From the NCBI GenBank assembly GCA_015478775.1, contig JADMKP010000007.1, positions 248,001 through 312,000 on the forward strand: DNA of 64,000 nucleotides, in the 5' to 3' direction. Position 1 is the stretch's first letter. Each line of letters begins with the position of its first letter. The stretch is from Fermentimonas sp. Lineage in GTDB: Bacteria; Bacteroidota; Bacteroidia; Bacteroidales; Dysgonomonadaceae. A model generated the notes under the pieces. The model did no database searches and was not told the origin of the DNA. It saw nothing but the letters and a program-made list of their open reading frames with translations. A program made the translations under genes and the position numbers. Positions 13,993 through 42,266 of the stretch are shown in pieces.

Positions 13993-14045
13993 GAAATAAA
14001 GAGGCAAATAACTATGGGAAGTATATAAAACTAATGGTATGTATA

Positions 14046-14117
14046 TAAAAAAGGAAAGGTTGTCTCACGACAACCAATCTTCATTGTTAACCTTAAATCT
14101 AATACCATGAAAAACAC
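14046..14117 (-). ncRNA. Candidate small RNA with its own promoter and terminator
   Basis: The 339-base spacer between the GSCFA gene and the RlmI-type gene contains a compact minus-strand transcription unit. A -7 box TATATTTG lies at 14129-14122. About 40 unstructured bases follow, then the hairpin GGTTGTC-GTGA-GACAACC (14075-14058) and a T-rich tract with six consecutive T. The predicted RNA is about 70 bases. It also contains a 25-codon frame (14108 to 14031) starting MVLDLRLTMK, which runs past the terminator and is probably not a protein. Read on the plus strand, the hairpin has no T tract, so the minus orientation is the functional one. Confidence 0.6.
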
Positions 14118-24064: not shown

Positions 24065-24751
24065 ATGAAAATCCACAAAGAAGGTAAATCACCATTAATT
24101 AATACATTTATCATAATATTATTGATAAATGTTTGTACTTTATATTTCTTCTCCGAGACACTATTTTCTACAATCTTCCTTGGTATATCACTTATATTAT
24201 TAGCATTGACAATTAACTTTTATAGAAGTCCCGAACGTGTTTATAAAGGCGATCTTCATGGATTAGTAAACAGTCCCACTGACGGCAAAGTAGTTGCTAT
24301 TGAAAGGGTGCATGAAAAGAATTTTTTAAATGAAGAAAGGATTCAGGTATCTATATTTATGTCTATTTTTAATGCACATTCAAATTGGATACCAGTTTCG
24401 GGAAAAATCACACATTTCTCACATGTTGATGGCAACTTCCATGTGGCATACCTACCTAAATCTAGTACTGAGAACGAACACACTAATATTATTATTGAAA
24501 CCCCTCAACATGGCACAATACTAACAAAACAAATCGCGGGAGCTGTTGCACGTAGAATTGTCACTTATGTAAAAGAAGGGGAAGAAGTGCATATTGGCTC
24601 ACCTCTTGGGTTCATTAAATTAGGGTCGAGGATGGATGTCTTTCTACCAGTTAATTCAGAATTAATGGTTAATATTGGAGATGAAGTACGCGCAAACAAT
24701 ACATTCCTTGCTAGGTTAGCTAAAACCAGTGAAACAATGGGTGAGGAATAA
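24065..24751 (+). CDS. psd: Phosphatidylserine decarboxylase, short type
   Basis: 228 residues. An N-terminal hydrophobic hairpin (about 15-52) anchors it to the membrane. NSPTDGKVVAIERV and SIFMSIFNAHSNWIPVSGKI are the substrate-site motifs. FIKLGSRMDVFLP contains the Gly-Ser self-cleavage site that generates the pyruvoyl cofactor. The short form is common in Bacteroidetes. It makes phosphatidylethanolamine from the phosphatidylserine produced by pssA, 85 bases downstream. Confidence 0.92.
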   Translation: MKIHKEGKSPLINTFIIILLINVCTLYFFSETLFSTIFLGISLILLALTINFYRSPERVYKGDLHGLVNSPTDGKVVAIERVHEKNFLNEERIQVSIFMSIFNAHSNWIPVSGKITHFSHVDGNFHVAYLPKSSTENEHTNIIIETPQHGTILTKQIAGAVARRIVTYVKEGEEVHIGSPLGFIKLGSRMDVFLPVNSELMVNIGDEVRANNTFLARLAKTSETMGEE

Positions 24752-24836: not shown

Positions 24837-25544
24837 ATGCGTAAACAAATACCCAACATTATAACTCTTCTAAACCTCTTTTCGGGTACTATAGCAATTA
24901 CACTTGCTTTTAATGGTAATTTCTTAGGAGTAGTAATTTGGGTAGTTATAGCTGCTATATTTGACTTTTTGGATGGAATGGTAGCGCGTTTTTTAAAAGC
25001 ATTCTCACCTTTGGGAAAGGAGCTTGATTCATTAGCTGATGTAGTGAGTTTTGGAGTGGCTCCAGCTTCTGCTCTGTATATATTAATGAAAGACGGCATT
25101 ATCTATCCCTATTTCCTTCAATCTATAAGTCATTTAATACCTTACATAGCATTTTTGATTCCAGTATTTGCTGCATATCGACTTGCTAAATTCAATATTG
25201 ATTCTCGTCAATCTAACTCCTTTATTGGACTACCAACTCCAGCAAATGGACTTTTTTGGATTAGTTATTGTTACACTATTGATAAATTTGCCATACATAA
25301 TGAAATAATTATCTATGTTACTGTGATTGCAGTAATTATCATGTCAATAATTATGATAGCAGAGATTCCGATGTTTTCTTTTAAATCTAAAAACAAAGGG
25401 TTTAAAGGAAATGTAAGCCAATTAATACTGATACTTCTTTCTATAACATTTCTTGCAGTATTTGGGATTGGTGGAGTAGCTCTTAGTATCATTGCTTATA
25501 TATTTATTTCAATATTTAGTAACAGTTACAAAACTAAGCGTTAA
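24837..25544 (+). CDS. pssA: CDP-diacylglycerol-serine O-phosphatidyltransferase
   Basis: 235 residues, a polytopic membrane enzyme. FDFLDGMVARFLKAFSPLGKE followed by LDSLADVVSFG is the complete CDP-alcohol phosphotransferase motif (D-G-x2-A-R-x8-G-x3-D-x3-D). It makes phosphatidylserine from CDP-diacylglycerol and serine. About six hydrophobic segments span the protein. Paired with psd, it supplies the phosphatidylethanolamine branch. Confidence 0.93.
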   Translation: MRKQIPNIITLLNLFSGTIAITLAFNGNFLGVVIWVVIAAIFDFLDGMVARFLKAFSPLGKELDSLADVVSFGVAPASALYILMKDGIIYPYFLQSISHLIPYIAFLIPVFAAYRLAKFNIDSRQSNSFIGLPTPANGLFWISYCYTIDKFAIHNEIIIYVTVIAVIIMSIIMIAEIPMFSFKSKNKGFKGNVSQLILILLSITFLAVFGIGGVALSIIAYIFISIFSNSYKTKR

Positions 25545-25964: not shown

Positions 25965-27227
25965 ATGACAGATATTTTTGATCGTTTAAAAAGTGCTGCC
26001 GGTCCCCTTGAGCAGTATCGCCAAAAGGCTGAAGGTTATTTCATGTTCCCTGAATTAGAAGGAGAAATAGGACCGAGAATGAAATTTATTGGTAAAGAAG
26101 TAATCACATGGAGTCTTAATAACTATCTGGGATTAGCAAATCACCCCGAAGTGCGTGAAGCTGATGCAAAAGCAGCAGCCGATTGGGGAATGGCATACCC
26201 AATGGGCGCCAGAATGATGTCGGGACAAACAAAATATCATAAAGAACTTGAAGTTCGTCTTTCTAAGTTCGAGAAAAAAGAATCTACATACCTCCTCAAT
26301 TATGGTTACCAGGGTATGGTTTCTATTATCGATTCACTAGTATCAAGAAACGATGTTATTGTGTATGATTCAGAGTCACATGCATGCATAATGGATGGCA
26401 TCTTTTTGCACAAAGCTAAAGGAGGTAAAAGTTTTGTTTATCCACACAACGATATGGAACGTTGCGATAGGATGCTTGGCTTTGCTACACGTAATGCAGA
26501 AGAGACAGGTGGTGGAATTTTACTTATTACAGAAGGTGTATTCGGAATGTCGGGAGACCTAGGCAATCTACCTGGAATTATTAAGTTGAGAGATAAGTAT
26601 AATTTCCGAATCATGATTGATGATGCACACGGATTTGGCACAATGGGCGAAACGGGTGCTGGTGCCAGTGAGCACTTTGGACTAATGGATCAAGTGGATA
26701 TCTACTTCGCAACTTTTGCAAAATCAATGGCAGGTATTGGTGCATTTGTAAGTTCAGAAAAAGCAATTATAGATTCTCTGAAGTATAATATGCGATCACA
26801 GATCTTTGCTAAATCACTACCCATGCCAATGGTAATTGGTGCTTTAAAACGACTAGATATTCTCCAAAATCAACCAGAGCACAAAGAGAATCTGTGGAGA
26901 GTTACTAAATCTTTACAAGAAGGCTTAGTTGCAGAGGGCTTCAATATCGGAAACACAGAATCACCCGTTACGCCCGTATATGTCAAAGGAAATGTTGCAG
27001 AAGGCACAAACGTTGTAGTTGATTTGCGTGAGAACCATAATATTTTCTGCTCACTTGTTGCATATCCTGTTGTACCTAAAGATGTGCTAATGCTTAGGCT
27101 AATACCCACTGCTTCTCACACTCAGAAAGAAGTAGATCAAACAATTGAAGTATTTAAAAAGATAAAAGCTAATCTTGAAGCAGGAAAATATAAGGGCGAC
27201 GAGATGCAATCCAAATCTATTGAATAA
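25965..27227 (+). CDS. Alpha-oxoamine synthase; likely cysteate fatty acyltransferase (CapB/SulA-like)
   Basis: 420 residues, fold-type I PLP enzyme of the serine palmitoyltransferase / KBL / AONS family, which condenses an amino acid with an acyl thioester and releases CO2. WSLNNYLGLANHPEV and YPMGARMMSGQTKYHKELE are the family N-terminal motifs. MIDDAHGFGTMGETG binds the PLP nitrogen, and Lys253 in TFAKSMAGIGAF is the Schiff-base lysine. The substrate is inferred from context: the overlapping downstream gene looks like cysteate synthase and an SDR follows, which is the capnine set. Alternatives are serine palmitoyltransferase (sphingolipids) or 2-amino-3-ketobutyrate ligase. Family 0.95, cysteate specificity about 0.6. 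Confidence 0.85.
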   Translation: MTDIFDRLKSAAGPLEQYRQKAEGYFMFPELEGEIGPRMKFIGKEVITWSLNNYLGLANHPEVREADAKAAADWGMAYPMGARMMSGQTKYHKELEVRLSKFEKKESTYLLNYGYQGMVSIIDSLVSRNDVIVYDSESHACIMDGIFLHKAKGGKSFVYPHNDMERCDRMLGFATRNAEETGGGILLITEGVFGMSGDLGNLPGIIKLRDKYNFRIMIDDAHGFGTMGETGAGASEHFGLMDQVDIYFATFAKSMAGIGAFVSSEKAIIDSLKYNMRSQIFAKSLPMPMVIGALKRLDILQNQPEHKENLWRVTKSLQEGLVAEGFNIGNTESPVTPVYVKGNVAEGTNVVVDLRENHNIFCSLVAYPVVPKDVLMLRLIPTASHTQKEVDQTIEVFKKIKANLEAGKYKGDEMQSKSIE

Positions 27228-28555
27228 TGTTAAGATTAAAAGCCCAGAACAAATACTGGCTAACCTGTACTCAGTGCAGTTATGAAACCCCTAACTTCTG
27301 GACTTGGTTTAATCAAAACCAACAATGTCCAAAGTGTTCTAGTAAGCATTCAGAAGTATCTTATAATAGAAGATACCAAAGATTGCCACGTATAATGAAT
27401 CGTGTAAACGATAGTTTTTGGACCTACTTCCCCTTTTTGCCTCTTTTACGTAGAAGACATATTGTCTCATTTAAAGAAGGAGCAATTCCTGTTGAGAGAT
27501 GGAGTTTCCTTGAGGAATTTGCCAAAAAAGAATTTAATCTAGATATTAAAGTACATGTTTACCGCAACGACCTCAATGGGGGCACCGGCACATTTAAAGA
27601 TATTGCAGCTTCTTTGGCTGCAAGTATTTTCAACGAAATAGGAATAAATCAGTATTGTATTGCTTCAACAGGCAATTCAGCTACGGCTTATGCCAAATAT
27701 CTCTCCAAGGCAAATGTAAACTGCTCAGTTTTTATGCCTGAGGATACAATAGGTACGTCAGAAGCAACTATAACTTCTTATGGCCAACAAGTATTCAAAG
27801 TATCAGGAGATTACGCTAGAGCTAAGGAAATAGCTGCTGGTTACGCAAAGATTCACAAAATCCCCATGTCTACCGGAAATATCGATCCAATTAGAGTTGA
27901 AGCTAAAAAGACTATGGTGTTTGAATTACTTCGCCAGATGGATACATTTCCCGATGTATATATACAAGCTGTAAGCGGTGGAACGGGTCCAATTGCAATA
28001 GATAAAGGTATAAGAGAAATTAAATCAATATATCCCGATATTAAGAATCCTCGTTTTATGCTGGTGCAACCTGATGGGTGTGACCCAATGGTGAGTGCAT
28101 GGGAAAAAGCCGAAGAAGAAGGTTTTCCCGAAGGATTCGAAAAAAACTATACAATAATTGATAATCCAAAGACCGAAGTTCCAACATTAGCCACAGGAAA
28201 CCCAGCTACCTACCCTATTGTTGCAAAACTAGTTAAAGAATCTGGGGGTACATTTTTAAGAATGCGTGAAAGTAAGTTGCTATCCATAGGGAAACTTATT
28301 GCATATGAGCAAAAAGTAATACCAGGACCCGCATCTTCGGTTTGTATTGCTGGTTTCTTTCTAGCTCTTAAAAAGAATAAAATTAAGGATGGAGAAACAG
28401 TTCTTATAAATATTGGTGAAGGTCCAAACCGTGCACCATATTATTTAGAGCAAATGGTTACTACCTCACAATTAGTAAGCAATGTCGAAGAGTGTGCACC
28501 CCATTTCATTGACGATTTCCGCAAAGGACTTTGGGATGAAGTTTTGAGAGATTAA
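27227..28555 (+). CDS. Threonine-synthase-like PLP enzyme; likely cysteate synthase (CapA-like)
   Basis: 442 residues. A zinc ribbon is formed by Cys14, Cys17, Cys34 and Cys37. The fold-type II PLP core follows: Lys124 in LNGGTGTFKD, ASTGNSATAYAKYLSKA, and QAVSGGTGPIAID as the phosphate-binding loop. GEGPNR near the end is also typical of the threonine-synthase group. Cysteate synthase, which makes L-cysteate from O-phosphoserine and sulfite, is a known relative of threonine synthase. The ATG shares a base with the upstream synthase stop, so the two proteins are made together. No thrA or thrB is adjacent, which argues against simple threonine synthesis. True threonine synthase remains possible. 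Confidence 0.8.
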   Translation: MLRLKAQNKYWLTCTQCSYETPNFWTWFNQNQQCPKCSSKHSEVSYNRRYQRLPRIMNRVNDSFWTYFPFLPLLRRRHIVSFKEGAIPVERWSFLEEFAKKEFNLDIKVHVYRNDLNGGTGTFKDIAASLAASIFNEIGINQYCIASTGNSATAYAKYLSKANVNCSVFMPEDTIGTSEATITSYGQQVFKVSGDYARAKEIAAGYAKIHKIPMSTGNIDPIRVEAKKTMVFELLRQMDTFPDVYIQAVSGGTGPIAIDKGIREIKSIYPDIKNPRFMLVQPDGCDPMVSAWEKAEEEGFPEGFEKNYTIIDNPKTEVPTLATGNPATYPIVAKLVKESGGTFLRMRESKLLSIGKLIAYEQKVIPGPASSVCIAGFFLALKKNKIKDGETVLINIGEGPNRAPYYLEQMVTTSQLVSNVEECAPHFIDDFRKGLWDEVLRD

Positions 28556-28601
28556 TATTATAACTCACAATTCGGTAGTTGTTTGTATGGTCATACAATA
28601 A

Positions 28602-28670
28602 ATGTTTAGATAGTCACATAAAAGATGTTCTGGACTGTTACACAAAAATGTTTGGATAGTTACATAAATG
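28602..28670 (+). repeat. Three tandem 23-bp imperfect repeats
   Basis: Units beginning ATGTTTAGATAGTCACATA, ATGTTCTGGACTGTTACAC and ATGTTTGGATAGTTACATA start at 28602, 28625 and 28648. The period is exactly 23. They fill most of the spacer between the PLP pair and the SDR gene. There are no spacers between units, so it is not a CRISPR array. Confidence 0.75.
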
Positions 28671-28695
28671 CTCGTTTCACATAATTAATCAAATT

Positions 28696-29487
28696 ATGCA
28701 AAACAATAAAACTATATGGATAACTGGAGCTTCGTCTGGCATAGGCGAAGCTTCTGCTTATCAATTTGCTAAAGAAAAGGCTAACCTTATTCTAACGGCT
28801 ACTCGGGAAGATAAACTAAAGGAAGTTCAGCAAATATGTATTAGTATGGGTGCTCATTGCAAAGTAATACCATACGATCTTTCAGATCTGGAAAATATTG
28901 ATGAACTAACAGATAAAGCTATTTCAGCATTTGGGAATATTGATATTGCTTTTCTTAATGCAGGCATTAGTCAACGCTCCAAAACACTAGATACAGCCTT
29001 CACGGTGGATGAAAAAATAATGGCAGTAAATTTCTTTGCGCCAGTAAAGATTACAAAACGTTTACTACCTAAAATGATCGAAAACGGAGGAGGTACAATA
29101 GCCGTTACCAGTAGCATCTCAGGCAAATTCGGATTCCCTCTCAGGTCGGCTTATGCCTCATCCAAATTCGCAGTATATGGATTCTTCGAAACTGTCCATG
29201 CCGAGTATTACAACGATAACATACGAGTTGTAATGGTATGCCCAGGTAGAATAAAAACTAATATATCTTACAACGCACTTGAAGCTGATGGAACAAAACA
29301 TGCAAAGATGGATTCCGGTCAACAAGGCGGAATGTCAGCCGAGAAAGCAGCAATTAAAATTGTTAGAGCCATAAACAACCGCAAACCCGAAGTATTGGTA
29401 GGTGGCAAGGAGTTAATCATGGTTTATATAAAACGACTCTTCCCAGCTCTTGCTAGAAAATTGGTACGTAAAGTTAGTGCAACATAA
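28696..29487 (+). CDS. SDR-family oxidoreductase; candidate 3-ketocapnine reductase (CapC-like)
   Basis: 263 residues, classical short-chain dehydrogenase. The nucleotide-binding motif TGASSGIGEA is at residues 11-20, and LNAGISQ is the NAG motif. The catalytic Ser lies in VTSSISGKFG and Tyr-x3-Lys in SAYASSKFAVYG. ATREDK after the second strand, with Arg and Lys, suggests NADPH. The C-terminal helix with KRLFPALARKLVRKV is basic and amphipathic, as in membrane-associated lipid reductases. Placed after the two PLP enzymes, it could reduce the 3-keto intermediate. Other SDR roles are equally allowed by sequence. Confidence 0.82.
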   Translation: MQNNKTIWITGASSGIGEASAYQFAKEKANLILTATREDKLKEVQQICISMGAHCKVIPYDLSDLENIDELTDKAISAFGNIDIAFLNAGISQRSKTLDTAFTVDEKIMAVNFFAPVKITKRLLPKMIENGGGTIAVTSSISGKFGFPLRSAYASSKFAVYGFFETVHAEYYNDNIRVVMVCPGRIKTNISYNALEADGTKHAKMDSGQQGGMSAEKAAIKIVRAINNRKPEVLVGGKELIMVYIKRLFPALARKLVRKVSAT

Positions 29488-29574: not shown

Positions 29575-30669
29575 ATGAAAGAGAATTATATCATATCCGG
29601 AATTCAACAAATTGGTATTGGAGTTGAGAATTTTGCAGAAGCTTGGAAGTACTATATTGATGTTTTCAATATGGATATTCGTATCCTCGAAGACGATAAA
29701 GTAGCTGAGTTAATGCTACCTTACACTGGTGGTAAACCACACAAGCGCAGAGCAGCCATAGCTCTTAATATGCAAGGTGGGGGCGGATTTGAGATATGGC
29801 AATATTCAGAACGTAAACCTAAACCTATCGACTTTCAGATTCAGGTGGGTGATTTGGGTGTTTTTGTTGCAAAAATAAAGAGTAGGGATGTAATGAAGAC
29901 CTACCAGCATTTCAGCAAAAAACCTAATGTGCACCTTTTAGGAAAGCCACAAAACAGTATAGATGGTCATAAAACATTTTTCATGAAAGATCCTTTCGGT
30001 AATTTGTTTCAGATTGTACATGAACCTACTGTTTACCGAGATGAGGGGCGACTAACAGGTGGTATTGCAGGTGCTATGATTGGTGTCACCGATATTGAAA
30101 AAGCTATGCCCATATACCGCGATATTCTAGGGTATGATGTAATAGTTGCAGACGAAACCGGAACTTTTGAAGATCTTAAATCACTCCCCTCAGGAGAAGG
30201 ACAATTTCATCGTCGTATATTATCTCACAGTAACCCACGCCAAGGCAGTTTTAGTGAATTATTTGGCAAATCTTTTATAGAGTTAGTTCAACCATTAGAT
30301 CGCACTCCACGTAAAATTTATGAGGGACGTTATTGGGGAGACCCCGGATTCATACAGATATGTTTCGATATCAGAAATACAGATGCACTAAGAAAGAAGT
30401 GTGAAGAAATGGGATATCCTTTCACTGTCGACAGTTCAAGCGCTTTCAAAGAAGGAGAATCATTTGACATGGGCGAGGCTGCAGGTCAATTTGCTTATAT
30501 TGAAGACCCCGACGGCACACTCATAGAACTTGTGGAAGCTCACAAGATACCGCTCATGAAAAAGCTCAATATTTATCTCGATCTCCGTAAGCGCTACCCA
30601 TCAAAATCACTGCCAAAATGGATGCTTGGCATGTTACGCTTTATGAAGGTTAAACCCGAAAGTTTATAA
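29575..30669 (+). CDS. Double-VOC-domain protein (glyoxalase / HPPD-like fold)
   Basis: 364 residues with two vicinal-oxygen-chelate modules. The first is residues 5-150 (ISGIQQIGIGVENFAEAWKYY to FMKDPFGNLFQIVHE) and the second 160-325 (GAMIGVTDIEKAMPIYRDILGYDVIVADE to AYIEDPDGTLIELVEAH). Each module ends in the expected Glu near the metal position (FQIVHE, IELVEAH). The metal-binding His positions look incomplete, so enzymatic activity is uncertain. A basic tail KLNIYLDLRKRYPSKSLPKW follows. It lies between the SDR and the type IX secretion operon. Function unknown. Confidence 0.8.
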   Translation: MKENYIISGIQQIGIGVENFAEAWKYYIDVFNMDIRILEDDKVAELMLPYTGGKPHKRRAAIALNMQGGGGFEIWQYSERKPKPIDFQIQVGDLGVFVAKIKSRDVMKTYQHFSKKPNVHLLGKPQNSIDGHKTFFMKDPFGNLFQIVHEPTVYRDEGRLTGGIAGAMIGVTDIEKAMPIYRDILGYDVIVADETGTFEDLKSLPSGEGQFHRRILSHSNPRQGSFSELFGKSFIELVQPLDRTPRKIYEGRYWGDPGFIQICFDIRNTDALRKKCEEMGYPFTVDSSSAFKEGESFDMGEAAGQFAYIEDPDGTLIELVEAHKIPLMKKLNIYLDLRKRYPSKSLPKWMLGMLRFMKVKPESL

Positions 30670-30709: not shown

Positions 30710-31753
30710 ATGAGGAATTGGCGAAATTATTTTATCATAACAATACTATTGTGTTGTTCAATTAAATTGTGTGCACAGTGGGAATCACCTATAGCCCAGT
30801 ATTGGGAAGTTAAAGGATATTACAATCCTTCATATGCAGGAATAGCAAATAGCATTAATACAACTGCAATTTATAAATATCAGGGGAATGGCATAGAAGG
30901 GCCATCTCAACGTATGCTATTTACAGCAGATATGCCCTTCACGTTACTAAATAAACGTCACGGAGCGGGAATCATCGCTTACACCGAAAATATTGGCACA
31001 CTTCGTAATTCTCTATTTGCGGCACAATACAGCTTCAAGCAACAAATAGGCAGTGGAATGCTCAATATCGGTTCACAAGCTGGGATATACAACCTAAACT
31101 ACGATGCAGGGACGGTAAATCTTATAACTAACCCAGATCAAACCAGATTTAGTAATATAAGTTTAAACACTACCAAAAAGCAAACTGTAGATATAAGTGC
31201 AGGTATATCTTGGACCGCCAAAAAGTTTTATGTGGGACTCTCTACACTACATATCAATCAACCAAAGTTTTATGTTTATAATATCACAAGCCCAACAAAC
31301 ACAACAGATTATCCACTAAATAACTCATCAGACACTCACGCAAATTACTCATCACAAAGTCTTACAAATAACTCATCAGACTCATTAAAATCGCATATAC
31401 CTCTATCATTAATTTTCACCACAGGATACAATATTCCACTATTTAATTCGTTTGAAATACAGCCTATGATGTTGATATTATCAAATAGTAATCACACATA
31501 TACGCAAGCAACCTTGCAAATTGAATATGATAATAAGCTTTCGGGAGGATTCTCTTGGATCTCAGATAATGGGTATTCAATATTCGCCGGTACAACAATT
31601 CAAGGTTTCGGTCTTGGTTACGCTTATATAATAGATAAAAACGGTTTTGGTAAAGATAGCAAAGGAAGTCACGAACTGTATTTAAAGTATGACTTTCCTT
31701 TAGATTACCTCAAGCCAAGATCACAACCGCATAAAAGTATACGATTTTTATAA
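30710..31753 (+). CDS. Type IX secretion membrane protein PorP/SprF family
   Basis: 347 residues. The signal peptide ends at LCAQ (residue 23). WESPIAQYWEVKGYYNPSYAGIANSINTTAIYKYQ is the diagnostic PorP/SprF beginning, and the rest alternates like an outer-membrane beta-barrel (GAGIIAYTENIG, LNIGSQAGIYNLNY, GISWTAKKFYVGLST). PorP is required for type IX secretion in Porphyromonas. SprF paralogues serve individual substrates such as SprB. Directly followed by gldK-L-M-N, this copy is the core-operon PorP. Confidence 0.9.
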   Translation: MRNWRNYFIITILLCCSIKLCAQWESPIAQYWEVKGYYNPSYAGIANSINTTAIYKYQGNGIEGPSQRMLFTADMPFTLLNKRHGAGIIAYTENIGTLRNSLFAAQYSFKQQIGSGMLNIGSQAGIYNLNYDAGTVNLITNPDQTRFSNISLNTTKKQTVDISAGISWTAKKFYVGLSTLHINQPKFYVYNITSPTNTTDYPLNNSSDTHANYSSQSLTNNSSDSLKSHIPLSLIFTTGYNIPLFNSFEIQPMMLILSNSNHTYTQATLQIEYDNKLSGGFSWISDNGYSIFAGTTIQGFGLGYAYIIDKNGFGKDSKGSHELYLKYDFPLDYLKPRSQPHKSIRFL

Positions 31754-31757
31754 GTAA

Positions 31758-31875
31758 AACGATAACTAAATAGTATACGTTGATAGGTAAGAGATAACGA
31801 TTAGTAAATAGTACATTTTAATTGGTAAGAAATATAACGAAGAGCAAATAGCACACATTGATTGATAAGAAATAT
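31758..31875 (+). repeat. Three tandem imperfect repeats of 38-40 bp before gldK
   Basis: Units starting AACGATAACTAAATAGTA, AACGATTAGTAAATAGTA and AACGAAGAGCAAATAGCA begin at 31758, 31796 and 31836. They fill the spacer from five bases after the porP/sprF stop to 60 bases before the gldK ATG. Confidence 0.75.
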
Positions 31876-31935
31876 AAACTTAGCACGATTAAAACAAACA
31901 ATATATTTACAAGAAGAAAAACTTACAATAAAATA

Positions 31936-33315
31936 ATGAGAAAACTTTTTTTATTATTAATGATAATCCCTATAATCCATTCATGTGGTGGAAGCCGTAT
32001 GGGAGGTGGTATCGGCGGCGAATTAGTTGGTGTTCCGGTGGGTAAGGTTTGGAACGAGCCAACTCCTTATAATATGGTATTAGTATCACGCGGGGCTTAT
32101 ACTATGGGTGGCGAAATTGATTCAATCTGGGGAATAAATATTCCTACTCGCGGGGTGTCTGTAGACAATTTCTGGATGGATGAAACAGAAATCACCAATT
32201 CGCAATACAAGCAGTTTGTGTACTGGGTGCGCGACTCGATAATACGTGAACGAATGGCCGATCCTGCATACGCTGGAGATGATTTCTACAAGATTACTGA
32301 AGATATTTATGGCGATCCGGTAACTCCTCATCTCAACTGGTCAATTCCAATACCATGGACACGTAATACCGAAGAGGAAGAGGTTGCTATCAATAGCCTT
32401 TATAAAACACATCCAATTACCGGAGAAAAAATGCTGGATGTTAAACAGATGAACTTTCGTTACGAATGGTATGATGCAGGTGAAGCAGCAAAACGACAAT
32501 ATCAAACTGTTGCCAATGATAATCAGTTAATTATTAGCAAAGACACTGCTTATATTGCAATTGATGGTAGTGTAGTTAATGAAACAATTACTCGTCCATA
32601 TAGCAGTCACTACGACTTTGTACATACGTATATAGTCAACATTTATCCCGATACAACCACTTGGATAAATGATTTTGATAATAGCAATAATGAGATTTAC
32701 GTGCGCAACTACTTCTCACATCCTGCCTACTCTCATTATCCGGTTGTAGGTGTATCTTGGGAACAAGCCACTGCATTTTGCGAATGGCGCACACTGTTTT
32801 TAAGAAAAAGTATCAATAGGCCAGGCATTCAAGTTGAAAAATACCGACTCCCCACCGAGGCCGAATGGGAGCTTGCAGCGCGTAGTGGAAATTCTGACAA
32901 TATTTATCCTTGGGGTACTGATGAAACTACCTCCGAAAGTGGTTGCTACCAGGCAAACTTCAATCCGGGCGAAGGTGCTTATGCGGCAGACAACTATCTC
33001 ATTACCGCACCTGTAAGGAGTTTTAAGCCAAACAATATCGGTTTATATGACATGGCCGGCAATGTTGCAGAATGGACTTCCACAGCATACACCGAGGCAG
33101 GCAATGAGTTGATGGGAAACATAAATCCCGAATTCAGATATAATGCCTCAGTTGACGACCCTAACTTTATGAAACGAAAAGTAATAAAAGGAGGATCATG
33201 GAAAGATATAGCAACATTTATTCGTGCCGACACAAGAGATACTGAAACACAAAATGTTGGACGTTCCTACATAGGATTCAGATGTGTGCGCACTCAATTA
33301 CCAGGGAATAGATAA
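31936..33315 (+). CDS. gldK: Type IX secretion ring lipoprotein GldK/PorK
   Basis: 459 residues from ATG 31936. A TTG-started extension from 31858 would run into the repeat tract. MRKLFLLLMIIPIIHSC is a lipoprotein signal with lipobox IHSC. The body is a formylglycine-generating-enzyme-like fold: MVLVSRGAYTMGG, VDNFWMDETEITNSQYKQFVYW, YRLPTEAEWELAAR, GLYDMAGNVAEWTSTAY and GGSWKDIATFIRADTRD to GFRCV. The fold is structural in this protein. With GldN it forms the large periplasmic ring attached to the outer membrane. Confidence 0.95.
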   Translation: MRKLFLLLMIIPIIHSCGGSRMGGGIGGELVGVPVGKVWNEPTPYNMVLVSRGAYTMGGEIDSIWGINIPTRGVSVDNFWMDETEITNSQYKQFVYWVRDSIIRERMADPAYAGDDFYKITEDIYGDPVTPHLNWSIPIPWTRNTEEEEVAINSLYKTHPITGEKMLDVKQMNFRYEWYDAGEAAKRQYQTVANDNQLIISKDTAYIAIDGSVVNETITRPYSSHYDFVHTYIVNIYPDTTTWINDFDNSNNEIYVRNYFSHPAYSHYPVVGVSWEQATAFCEWRTLFLRKSINRPGIQVEKYRLPTEAEWELAARSGNSDNIYPWGTDETTSESGCYQANFNPGEGAYAADNYLITAPVRSFKPNNIGLYDMAGNVAEWTSTAYTEAGNELMGNINPEFRYNASVDDPNFMKRKVIKGGSWKDIATFIRADTRDTETQNVGRSYIGFRCVRTQLPGNR

Positions 33316-33364
33316 TACAGCGAATGATTGACACTTAAAGAATAAGCAAAAAAATATTATAAAT

Positions 33365-33901
33365 ATGAATGCATACAAAAGATATAAAAATAGGCTCGAA
33401 AATTTTCTTCAAACCGAGCGGGGCAAACGCTTCATTAATTTTGCATATAGTATAGGGGCGGCTATTGTAATTCTCGGTGCCATGTTCAAGCTTCTTCATT
33501 TTCCGTTTGGCAACGAGCTTTTATTCATAGGTATGGTAACAGAAGTTATCGTGTTCACTCTTTCTGCATTTGATACGCCAATTCGAGATTACAACTGGGA
33601 CAAAGTCTTTCCCGCTCTAACACTGGAACGGCAAGAAAAAACAGACGCTGGTGATTATGCATTACAGCCAAACCAAGCATCACAGCTAAATCAGACTTCA
33701 CACAGCAGCACAAATCAACCACATAGGCACTCATCGGAGTTTCCAGAAGCAAACATCGATCTTTCTCCCCAAACCATTGAATATGCCAAGCAGATGGAGA
33801 GCCTCAAAAATGAAACCGAAAAAATGGCTCAGCAACTCAAGGAGCTCAACGAGGTTTATGCTCGAATGCTTAATGCAATGTCAACCAACAGAGACCACTA
33901 A
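33365..33901 (+). CDS. gldL: Type IX secretion motor protein GldL
   Basis: 178 residues. Two transmembrane helices lie at about residues 22-40 and 49-65 (FAYSIGAAIVILGAMFKLLHFPFGNELLFIGMVTEVIVFTLSAF). The sequence holds the conserved charged residue Glu between the helices (GNELLF and TEV) implicated in proton flow. The rest is a cytoplasmic domain with a Gln/Ser/Asn-rich linker (about 100-125) and a terminal coiled coil (EYAKQMESLKNETEKMAQQLKELNEVY). GldL pentamers surround a GldM dimer to form the proton-driven rotary motor. The gldM gene starts 12 bases downstream. Confidence 0.94.
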   Translation: MNAYKRYKNRLENFLQTERGKRFINFAYSIGAAIVILGAMFKLLHFPFGNELLFIGMVTEVIVFTLSAFDTPIRDYNWDKVFPALTLERQEKTDAGDYALQPNQASQLNQTSHSSTNQPHRHSSEFPEANIDLSPQTIEYAKQMESLKNETEKMAQQLKELNEVYARMLNAMSTNRDH

Positions 33902-33913
33902 AATTAACACACA

Positions 33914-35461
33914 ATGGCAGTAAACAGTCCCAACTCCCCACGTCAAAAAATGATAAACCTCATGTATCTGGTTTTCATTGCTATGTTGGCACTAAACGTA
34001 TCGGCAGAGGTGCTGGATGGCTTTGGATTGGTTGATAATAGTTTACGTAACTCATCCAATACATTGACTGATAGGAACAATCTTATAATGGAGGAGCTTG
34101 AAGTTTATAGCTTACAAAATCCCGAAAAAGCAGGGGATTGGTTTCAAAAGGGATTAGAAGTACGAAACATGACCGACTCTCTCACCGCTTATATTCAAGA
34201 ATTAAAGTATAAGATGGTTAGAGAGGCAGATGGTAAAAAAGCCGATGTAAATAATATAAAACGCAAAGACGATTTGGATGCTGCCTCCATCGTTATGTTA
34301 TCACCTATTAAAGGAAAGGGCAGTGAGCTCAGAAATGCAATAGATAATTATCGCAATAATATCACTAAACATGTACTAAACCCGGCTCGCAGAAGTATAA
34401 TAGAAAGAAGTTTAAGTACCCAAAGTGAAACCAATAAAAGTTGGGAAGCTCTGCATTTCGAGAATATGCCCTTAGCAGCAGCGGTTGCCATTCTCACTAA
34501 AATAGAGAACGATATAATTGCAGCAGAGGGTGATGCACTTGAAAATATTTTAAATAGTATAGATATAGGCGATTTCCGAGTAAATCAACTTAATGCATAC
34601 GTAATATCCGAGTCCGACATTGTATTTCAGGGTGGTCAATATAATGCTAGGGTGATTCTATCAGCCGAAGACACAACCAAACATCCCATAATGCATATAA
34701 ATGGAGCAACACCCACATTAAGTGAAAACAATACATTCTCTTTGTCCGCCAATTCTACAGGCACTTTCCCGGTTGATGGATATTTAGAGATTAGCGGTAA
34801 TGATGGCATTATTACAAAGCGAAATTTCAATAGCACTTACACCGTAATAGAACCCATGGCAACAATAGCTCCATCACTTATGAATGTGCTTTATGCCGGA
34901 ATAGATAACGAAATTAGTATATCTGTACCCGGAATTGCACCACAAGGTATAAGCGCAACAATTAAAAACGGAACAATTACCCGTAAAGACAATTTATGGG
35001 TAGCTCGTCCAAATGCAGTAGGGCAAGACGTTACAATTTCAATATCAGCACAAACAGCAAATGGTAAAACAAGGCAAGTAACCTCACGTGAATTTAGGGT
35101 ACGTGCACTCCCCGATCCCACTCCATTTATATCTTTTCAAGATGCAAATGGCAACCTGGTGATGTTTAAAGGAGGAGTTGTTACTAAAAGCACCTTAATG
35201 AATGCCGATGGAATTGGTGCTGCCATAGACGACGGGATACTCAATATTCCCTTTCGTGTACTGAATTTCCGTACAATATTTTTTGATTCTATGGGAAATG
35301 CAATCCCCGAAGTATCAAATGGAAATCAGTTTTCCTCAAGACAAAAGGATCAGATCAGGCAACTCTCCCGTGGAAAATATTTTTATATCTCAGGGGTTAA
35401 AGCAGCAGGTCCCGATGGCACAGAACGCGAAATAGCAGTAATGGAGATCAGAATAAATTAA
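33914..35461 (+). CDS. gldM: Type IX secretion motor shaft protein GldM
   Basis: 515 residues, the usual GldM length. The N-terminus PNSPRQKMINLMYLVFIAMLALNVSAEVLDGF carries the single transmembrane helix that sits in the GldL ring. The rest is periplasmic, with a helical D1 domain (to about 215) and three beta-sandwich domains. The end contains DADGIGAAIDDGILNIPFRVLNFRTIFFDSMGN and GKYFYISGVKAAGPDGTER, characteristic of the family. It transmits torque to the GldK-GldN ring. Confidence 0.95.
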   Translation: MAVNSPNSPRQKMINLMYLVFIAMLALNVSAEVLDGFGLVDNSLRNSSNTLTDRNNLIMEELEVYSLQNPEKAGDWFQKGLEVRNMTDSLTAYIQELKYKMVREADGKKADVNNIKRKDDLDAASIVMLSPIKGKGSELRNAIDNYRNNITKHVLNPARRSIIERSLSTQSETNKSWEALHFENMPLAAAVAILTKIENDIIAAEGDALENILNSIDIGDFRVNQLNAYVISESDIVFQGGQYNARVILSAEDTTKHPIMHINGATPTLSENNTFSLSANSTGTFPVDGYLEISGNDGIITKRNFNSTYTVIEPMATIAPSLMNVLYAGIDNEISISVPGIAPQGISATIKNGTITRKDNLWVARPNAVGQDVTISISAQTANGKTRQVTSREFRVRALPDPTPFISFQDANGNLVMFKGGVVTKSTLMNADGIGAAIDDGILNIPFRVLNFRTIFFDSMGNAIPEVSNGNQFSSRQKDQIRQLSRGKYFYISGVKAAGPDGTEREIAVMEIRIN

Positions 35462-35483
35462 ATTTGAATATAAATACTTCTAT

Positions 35484-36455
35484 ATGAAATCAATTATATT
35501 AACAGTTATACTTTCATTTGTTTCTTTGTCGCTGTTTCCACAAGAAACAGCAAGAGAGCGAATTGAACAAAGGAGAATAGAAGAAGCTAAGCAAAATAGT
35601 GGCGCTTCAACTTCACAAACCAACCACTCAGACATTCTTTTAAAAGATATTATAGAAAATGCCAGGTGGTCAAGAATAATATACCGATACATAGATCTAA
35701 CCAATCAAACCAACTCCCCACTCTACTATCCAGAAACGCCGGTGGAAGGTAAGATGAATCTGTTTACAACCCTATTCAGATTGTTGCAAAACAATGATAT
35801 TAAAGCATATGAATATCTAGATGGTAGAGAGAGTTTTACCGATGAGTACCTTATAAATTTTACTGAATTCATGGATCGTTTTGATATATATTACGAAAAT
35901 AACAATGGCGCAACTATAGTGCACGATGCCGACATACCTTCTCATCTTGTGCAGGGCTATTATTTAAAAGAAGTGTATTACTTCGATACCTCCACATCAA
36001 GTTTAAAAGTATTACCAATATCTCTCTGCCCCATCCTTCATCAAATAGATAATTACGAGGGTACAACACGTTATCCCCTGTTTTGGGTTCCTTATAGTGA
36101 TGTGGAGCAAAAGATGCGCACTATGTCAGCCATGTCGTCGTCTATTAACAACAATATGAGAGGCTCCATCGACGATTTTTTCAGAACTCGATTGTATGAT
36201 GGTGAGATATACAAAACAGGAAACCCAGGCAACCTCTCGATTTCTCAGTACACCAACTCACCCCAAGAGATGAAAACAGAGCAAGAAAGGATTGAGCAAG
36301 AGCTAGTTGATTTCGATAATCAGCTCAGGAAAGAACCGGTGGGCAATCTCATCCAAAACAATAAAAACACTAAAAACCAAAGACAAAGAACAAGCGTTAT
36401 ATCTAAAGACAACAATTCTGGTGCGCAACAATCTATGCGTAACCGCAGATATTAA
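35484..36455 (+). CDS. gldN: Type IX secretion ring protein GldN/PorN
   Basis: 323 residues. The signal peptide ends near LFPQE (residue 20). LLKDIIENARWSRIIYRYIDLTNQTNSPLYYPETP is the GldN/PorN signature, followed by FTTLFRLLQNNDIKAYEYLDG and PCIL-like ISLCPILHQ. FFRTRLYDGEIYKTGNPGNLSISQY is also conserved. The C-terminal 50 residues are charged and low-complexity (KNTKNQRQR). Last of the five co-directional type IX genes. Confidence 0.93.
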   Translation: MKSIILTVILSFVSLSLFPQETARERIEQRRIEEAKQNSGASTSQTNHSDILLKDIIENARWSRIIYRYIDLTNQTNSPLYYPETPVEGKMNLFTTLFRLLQNNDIKAYEYLDGRESFTDEYLINFTEFMDRFDIYYENNNGATIVHDADIPSHLVQGYYLKEVYYFDTSTSSLKVLPISLCPILHQIDNYEGTTRYPLFWVPYSDVEQKMRTMSAMSSSINNNMRGSIDDFFRTRLYDGEIYKTGNPGNLSISQYTNSPQEMKTEQERIEQELVDFDNQLRKEPVGNLIQNNKNTKNQRQRTSVISKDNNSGAQQSMRNRRY

Positions 36456-42175: not shown

Positions 42176-42218
42176 CCGCTTTGGTAAATATTTACCTTTA
42201 CACGCTAAAACAAAGCGG
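42176..42218 (+). promoter_or_regulatory. Nested inverted repeats in the barrel gene leader
   Basis: CCGCTTTG (42176-42183) pairs with CAAAGCGG (42211-42218). Inside it lies the perfect palindrome GTAAATATTTAC (42184-42195). This could be a leader RNA structure or an operator. Confidence 0.4.
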
Positions 42219-42266
42219 AAGCCGAAAAGCTCAATGAGTAGGCAAGAATATATTATACTTAATATT

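Follow-up and report, generated by a model that had tools for sequence, protein, structure and literature searches.

A 64,000-nucleotide stretch of Fermentimonas sp. DNA (GenBank assembly GCA_015478775.1, contig JADMKP010000007.1, positions 248,001 to 312,000 of the forward strand; hereafter the window, in whose own numbering all coordinates are given) holds, in a compact cluster, genes that very likely make capnine, the sulfonolipid base and a sulfur-containing relative of sphingolipids. The assembly comprises 13 contigs and 2.9 Mb, with a completeness of 99.6%. Judged from sequence and gene context, the reading in which a cysteate synthase, a cysteate acyltransferase and a 3-ketocapnine reductase together provide the steps to capnine is given a probability of about 0.83. 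Liu et al. reportedly described, in 2022, a capnine pathway made up of CapA, CapB and CapC. The initial annotation of the window had proposed such a pathway from three open reading frames, assigned to an oxoamine synthase, a threonine-synthase-like enzyme dependent on pyridoxal phosphate (PLP) and a short-chain dehydrogenase/reductase (SDR). All three are open on the + strand (25965-27227, 27227-28555 and 28696-29487), and they match the corresponding families PF00155, PF00291 (PALP) and PF00106. The reported overlap of the first two genes is also found, as the TAA of the acyltransferase (27225-27227) and the ATG of the synthase (27227-27229) have a single base, 27227, in common. Two features had been overlooked, namely a fourth cluster member at 29575-30669, and the fact that the synthase fits neither curated cysteate synthase model; the pathway itself is supported by both sequence-based tests.

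The first gene (25965-27227, + strand), encoding a PLP-dependent protein of 420 amino acids, is very probably a cysteate acyltransferase of the SulA/CapB/CFAT type. Compared with solved structures, it is closest to 7u7h (E 1.4e-169, 567.5 bits) and to 28eh (E 1.2e-161, 541.4 bits), the latter recorded as a cysteate-C-fatty acyltransferase (CFAT), whereas the best serine palmitoyltransferase (SPT) structure, 3a2b, reaches E 7.1e-73 and 249 bits, and the best structure named 2-amino-3-ketobutyrate CoA ligase (KBL) alone 199.8 bits. The record of 7u7h bears the name of a 7-keto-8-aminopelargonate synthetase-like enzyme; judging from agreeing residue numbers, we take it to be SulA of Alistipes finegoldii. 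Residues N52, H139, K253, K283 and R378 of the window protein align with Asn53, His140, Lys251, Lys281 and Arg376 of SulA, the codon of Lys283 lying at 26811-26813 (+) according to the alignment to 7u7h. According to PMC9304779, Lys281 separates SulA from SPT, where the residue is Ala; 3-ketocapnine, the product of SulA, is reported at m/z 362.2. A lysine occupies this position in 110/110 acyltransferase matches above 350 bits across the fetched loci, possibly including repeated species; four weaker matches were excluded from this count, namely two acyltransferase fragments (Lys) and two proteins of only 33% identity (Ala), one of which is the genome's own SPT. This SPT (655.1 bits, cut-off 640) and a KBL (634.2 bits, cut-off 493) are encoded by separate genes of the genome. 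SPT and KBL identities are rejected for the window protein on the basis of the curated cut-offs, Lys281 and these true counterparts, and the cysteate acyltransferase initially proposed is well borne out.

In one relative (L153:2145-5573, genome G254), the acyltransferase makes up the C-terminal portion of a 1143-amino-acid protein, in which a fatty acyl-AMP ligase and a PP-binding carrier protein precede the oxoamine synthase, and the fourth cluster gene adjoins. Open frames of similar length occur in G179 (1171 amino acids) and G219 (1113), which are possible further cases by this length only, the domain scan covering L153 alone. The fusion fits acyl carrier protein-bound acyl chains (acyl-ACP) as the natural acyl donor.

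The second gene (27227-28555, +; 442 amino acids), whose family is referred to below as the window-type synthase, probably represents a third family of cysteate synthases, separate from both CapA and the archaeal type. It matches no NCBIfam model over its cut-off. The strongest match is to PRK08197 (threonine synthase; 154.5 bits, cut-off 303), with TIGR03844 (archaeal-type cysteate synthase) at 100.4 bits (cut-off 324.9) and TIGR00260 (thrC) at 90.6 bits (cut-off 167.1). These bit scores are for the window protein only, and all 28 aligned rows of the family match the same models. A CapA identity is rejected, as the CapA model NF053679 is not among the 15 models matching the synthase at E 0.001, and the genome's best match to it is another gene, with 256.9 of the 600 bits needed. 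In a profile search of solved structures, threonine synthases come best (E 4.5e-34), followed by 9k3c (E 2.1e-19), a cysteate synthase by the name on its PDB entry. The closest named records are from Bacteroidales bacterium (97% and 95%), then from Proteiniphilum, Fermentimonas and Petrimonas. The segment resembling a Cys4 zinc ribbon that had been noticed in this enzyme (27266-27337, +) is a putative zinc site, with Cys14, Cys17, Cys34 and Cys37 invariant in 28/28 aligned rows.

A tree of 62 rows, none of them a named, biochemically characterised enzyme, groups the window-type synthases in one clade (96/97) and 20 archaeal-type rows in another (100/100). The genome's own thrC falls outside both, together with nine ThrC-like rows (weak TIGR03844 matches, unclassified beyond that), so that the second enzyme groups with none of them, in agreement with the initial annotation. 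The window-type and archaeal-type clades join at 92/97, which is below the starred support level and over long branches; the deeper joins are, therefore, unsure. To call this third family undescribed is provisional, given that Liu et al. may already count such synthases among the archaeal-type homologues.

Gene neighbourhood was compared in 80 synthase loci (the best 80 of 156 relatives, many of these stretches ending at contig ends). The acyltransferase is present in 65 of them, the SDR in 54 and the fourth gene in 47, and all four genes stand in line in 47/80. Proteiniphilum acetatigenes (L041) has all four. The order acyltransferase-synthase-SDR is kept in line in 53/80 loci, which argues that the arrangement is not due to chance and upholds the three-gene cluster of the initial annotation as far as it went. 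Furthermore, 19/80 loci keep the four genes without any of infB, murI, psd, pss and gldK-N, three of these (L044, L059 and L084) being on short or partly covered stretches. In 14 loci (L093, L096, L098, L100-L106, L110, L111, L232 and L238), the window-type synthase is accompanied by another recurring neighbour (C9), a tetratricopeptide-repeat protein according to the scan of L105, and the acyltransferase is mostly not nearby.

Sulfur genes are also found beside the synthase in relatives. A cysH-type gene lies nearby in 7/65 scanned loci, with cysD and cysN as well in four. For example, L172 (G356) reads VOC-cysH-cysD-cysN-DASS symporter-cysQ-synthase, where VOC is the fourth cluster gene and every cys gene passes a cut-off in a gene-by-gene scan, and L227 (G317) reads cysH-cysD-cysN-synthase, with cysH identified by Pfam and the others by BLAST cluster. 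Reduction of adenosine 5'-phosphosulfate or its 3'-phosphorylated form yields sulfite, the presumed substrate of the synthase; six out of seven cysH loci showed no sulfite reductase on inspection by eye. A five-gene block resembling heterodisulfide reductase (Hdr) is represented by at least three genes in 19/65 scanned loci (e.g., L078:2213-7129) and never shares a locus with cysH (0/65). It consists of HdrC-, HdrB- and HdrA-like proteins, a small iron-sulfur protein and a CCG-domain protein, all below NCBIfam cut-offs, and our guess is that it supplies sulfite. Its HdrB occurs in 36/119 genomes of the order sample described below, 35 of them acyltransferase-positive (p 6e-5); a distance of 3.3 kb separates it from an archaeal-type synthase in G303. 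At E 1e-60, the window's genome yields no match to HdrB, and neither the cys nor the hdr genes of relatives are matched in the window; cysD, cysN and cysH were not searched for elsewhere in the genome.

The distribution of these genes was examined in 119 Bacteroidales genomes, nearly all from different families in the rows shown, with thresholds of E 1e-90 for the acyltransferase and E 1e-60 for the window-type synthase. The acyltransferase is present in 88/119, the window-type synthase in 25/119 and the archaeal type in 31/119 (30 over the cut-off plus one partial match, G404). The two synthase types never occur together (0/119, Fisher p 2.3e-4), and among the 88 acyltransferase-positive genomes, 22 have the window type and 29 the archaeal type, again with no overlap (p 4.1e-5). 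All co-occurrence p-values serve as a guide only, the genomes being related by descent. In a wider phylum sample of 296 genomes, the window-type synthase is matched solely in the window's own genome. Among class-mates outside the order, CapA stands beside the acyltransferase in L189 (NF053679, 649.2 over 600 bits), a PALP protein takes the corresponding place in L184, and by eye L190 and L191 are similar. The adjoining acyltransferase, the lack of overlap with the archaeal type and the nearby cysH genes all speak for the cysteate synthase first suggested for the second enzyme.

Several observations weigh against the capnine pathway as proposed. The acyltransferase is found in 22/25 window-type genomes, an association that is not significant alone (p 0.08), and the three others (G317, G331 and G378) have the synthase and the fourth gene with no acyltransferase detected at E 1e-90, or at E 1e-4 around their synthase; the presence of these two genes suggests that it may have been missed. 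As many as 37/88 acyltransferase-positive genomes of the order (e.g., G299, G301 and G359) contain neither synthase type, and 0/119 pass the CapA cut-off, so the cysteate supply of the order is incompletely accounted for. The acyltransferase is not visible in 15/80 synthase loci, some of them short, and no cysH lies nearby in 58/65 scanned loci, nor in the window itself. Finally, according to PMC11211663, each of two species has three active reductases that are unclustered with other pathway genes, and an SDR chosen by position could consequently be another SDR.

This last point concerns the third gene (28696-29487, +; 263 amino acids), which is likely the 3-ketocapnine reductase. It exceeds the cut-off of the generic SDR model NF004825 (227.2 bits, cut-off 215), and residues G11/G15/G17, S140, Y153 and K157 are invariant in 24/24 aligned rows. 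The 3-keto reductase put forward in the initial annotation agrees with its place in line behind the synthase and with these motifs, although, being based on gene order and SDR motifs only, it is the weakest of the three assignments.

The fourth gene (29575-30669, +) starts 87 bases 3' of the SDR gene and encodes a protein of 364 amino acids of the vicinal oxygen chelate (VOC) superfamily, with a glyoxalase fold. It matches PF00903, and VOC-type matches are found in each half, indicating two modules. Its membership of the cluster is supported by gene order and co-occurrence, the latter obtained with a profile built from 28 rows and searched in the order and phylum samples. In the phylum sample, it is present in 41/296 genomes, 41/41 with the acyltransferase (p 3e-21, inflated, one family making up 26/41), the acyltransferase itself being found in 108 genomes at E 3.7e-117 or better. 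In the order sample, 37 of the 40 VOC-positive genomes (out of 119) have it (p 8e-4), and the three others are the same genomes that carry the window-type synthase with no detected acyltransferase. Of 40 VOC loci from diverse genomes, 17 have the SDR within 2.5 kb, nine the acyltransferase, seven a PlsC-type protein and three cysH; 25 have any of these. A role in sphingolipid synthesis was set aside, as the VOC gene tracks the acyltransferase; no count against SPT was made.

The function of this protein is harder to assign. Its best solved match is 6bu2, at only E 0.0068, and it falls far under every NCBIfam cut-off listed. Gln12, Glu73, Gln261 and Glu318 are invariant in 28/28 rows; by the weak 6bu2 alignment only, they stand at glyoxalase I-type ligand positions, presuming the ligand pattern of glyoxalase I. 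The protein might be a non-catalytic lipid- or partner-binding component of the pathway, a tentative reading that we hold to be doubtful: it would explain why, in the same weak alignments, Gln (module 1) and Gly (module 2) stand where a His is the usual first ligand, and why the protein continues beyond its second module with a conserved C-terminal extension, but four unchanged possible metal ligands would be odd in a dead site. More speculative, and unlikely as it stands, is a metal-dependent isomerase paired with the reductase, which would epimerise C2 of 3-ketocapnine, thereby letting a stereoselective reductase consume all of it; according to PMC11211663, two capnine epimers are produced by reductases. 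It is rather improbable that the gene is a hitch-hiker, for instance a detoxification enzyme with no part in capnine synthesis. Its absence from 51/88 acyltransferase-positive order genomes and 67/108 phylum genomes, as well as the 15/40 VOC loci with no pathway gene within 2.5 kb, would suit a hitch-hiker, but the acyltransferase accompanies it in 41/41 and 37/40 genomes and pathway genes lie nearby in 25/40 diverse loci, counts that are all inflated by relatedness.

A PlsC-type membrane acyltransferase lies beside the SDR-VOC pair in eight loci (L145, L161, L164, L169, L171, L178, L179 and L180), and PF01553 is found in all six of the PlsC-type proteins scanned. It is a candidate capnine N-acyltransferase. 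Its match in the window's genome is only 31% identical, and it is, therefore, a lead from other genomes.

As regards the cluster itself, the second enzyme could be a threonine synthase, or could make another product from O-phosphoserine or O-phosphohomoserine, and be a mere neighbour of the acyltransferase. The threonine synthases that head its model and structure matches favour this view, as do the 15/80 loci with no visible acyltransferase. It is, however, quite improbable: the protein stays under every threonine synthase cut-off while another gene of the genome passes that of thrC (296.6 bits, cut-off 167.1), it belongs to a separate clade that is complementary to the archaeal cysteate synthase, and sulfate-to-sulfite genes accompany it in relatives. 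A ThrC identity is rejected on the basis of these cut-offs and the true thrC. Weakest of all, and extremely improbable, is the view that the first enzyme is an SPT (or a KBL or 8-amino-7-oxononanoate synthase) in a cluster for ordinary sphingolipid bases or amino acid metabolism, for despite the common superfamily and an SPT model (NF047600) as top NCBIfam match by bits, its 306.6 bits are far under the cut-off of 640, the SulA/CFAT structures score twice the bits of the SPT one, the SulA-specific Lys is Ala in the genome's own SPT, and distinct SPT and KBL genes are present.

In the capnine pathway that we favour, the ThrC-like PLP enzyme would exchange the phosphate of O-phosphoserine for sulfite, giving cysteate. 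The oxoamine synthase would then join cysteate and acyl-ACP with loss of CO2 to form 3-ketocapnine, a step expected from close homology to an enzyme of shown activity and structure. The SDR would reduce the ketone to capnine, as gene order and family suggest, the VOC protein may act beside it, and N-acylation would be performed by a gene outside the cluster. A capnine operon of ordinary chemistry is well supported, one in which the cysteate synthase is distinct and a partner gene is conserved. The wider scheme, combining a third origin of cysteate synthase (ThrC-like, Cys4), dedicated sulfite suppliers (CysD/N/H or a five-gene Hdr-like membrane complex), a metal-dependent VOC step with the reductase, perhaps C2 epimerisation for dynamic resolution, and a PlsC-type N-acyltransferase, is unlikely to hold as a whole.

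The cluster is flanked by phospholipid genes on its 5' side, psd (24065-24751, +) and then pss (24837-25544, +), a pair for which NF003678 (242.1 over 225 bits) and TIGR00473 (116.3 over 107 bits) are cited, and on its 3' side by porP/sprF, gldK, gldL, gldM and gldN of type IX secretion (30710-36455, +), of which porP, gldK and gldM pass the cut-offs of TIGR03519, TIGR03525 and TIGR03517, gldL and gldN being named from position. Among the 80 synthase loci, psd is found in 32, pss in 34 and gldK in 19. A connection between sulfonolipids and gliding is described in PMC10191378. The downstream gld genes were not used as evidence of such a link, given the 19/80 loci with gldK and the 19 that keep the four genes without the flanks; the linkage of the operon to type IX secretion genes looks family-specific. 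Promoter and terminator scans give no signal (23 and 4 sites, compared with 33.7 and 4.4 in shuffles). Two Rfam matches exceed the gathering score, a FopS paralogous small RNA (14044-14117, - strand, 77.6 bits) and a DUF805b RNA (42212-42244, +, 40.6 bits).

Gliding motility, inflammation and choanoflagellate development have all been connected with sulfonolipids (PMC11211663), whose biosynthesis is so far understood only in part. The cluster adds a cysteate synthase family unnamed in curated models and a conserved fourth gene, in an operon compact enough to be expressed whole, and it points to possible sulfite suppliers and a candidate N-acylation gene; the passage of PMC10191378 dealing with capnine N-acylation names no gene for that step. 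A literature search, with subscription papers mostly outside its coverage, listed no title or abstract dealing with synthases of the window type, with a VOC gene for capnine synthesis or with a connection between Hdr genes and sulfonolipids.

The capnine pathway as such is already known (PMC10191378 and PMC12927429). Compared with CapA-CapB-CapC, the cluster has a cysteate synthase, an acyltransferase orthologous to CapB/SulA and a ketocapnine reductase in the same chemical order, and differs by its non-CapA synthase, a reductase inside the operon and the extra VOC gene. Its acyltransferase is a full-length close homologue of A. finegoldii SulA (7u7h) with all the active-site residues named in PMC9304779, whereas the partner synthase differs, the window type forming a separate clade; Alistipes and Odoribacter have an archaeal-type cysteate synthase homologue, according to PMC10191378. 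With the archaeal-type enzyme (TIGR03844, 9k3c), the window synthase has in common PLP fold type II and distant homology over most of its length, but its score is far under 324.9, its clade is separate and the two do not co-occur in 119 genomes. The SDR belongs to the same family as the 3-ketocapnine reductases known from C. gleum and A. finegoldii and presumably performs the same reaction; the genes of those reductases are scattered (PMC11211663), whereas that of the window lies in an operon. The VOC protein, finally, resembles glyoxalase I and methylmalonyl-CoA epimerase-like proteins in its paired modules and its PF00903 match over the cut-off, and differs from them by its weak match to a solved structure and its sub-cut-off NCBIfam scores.

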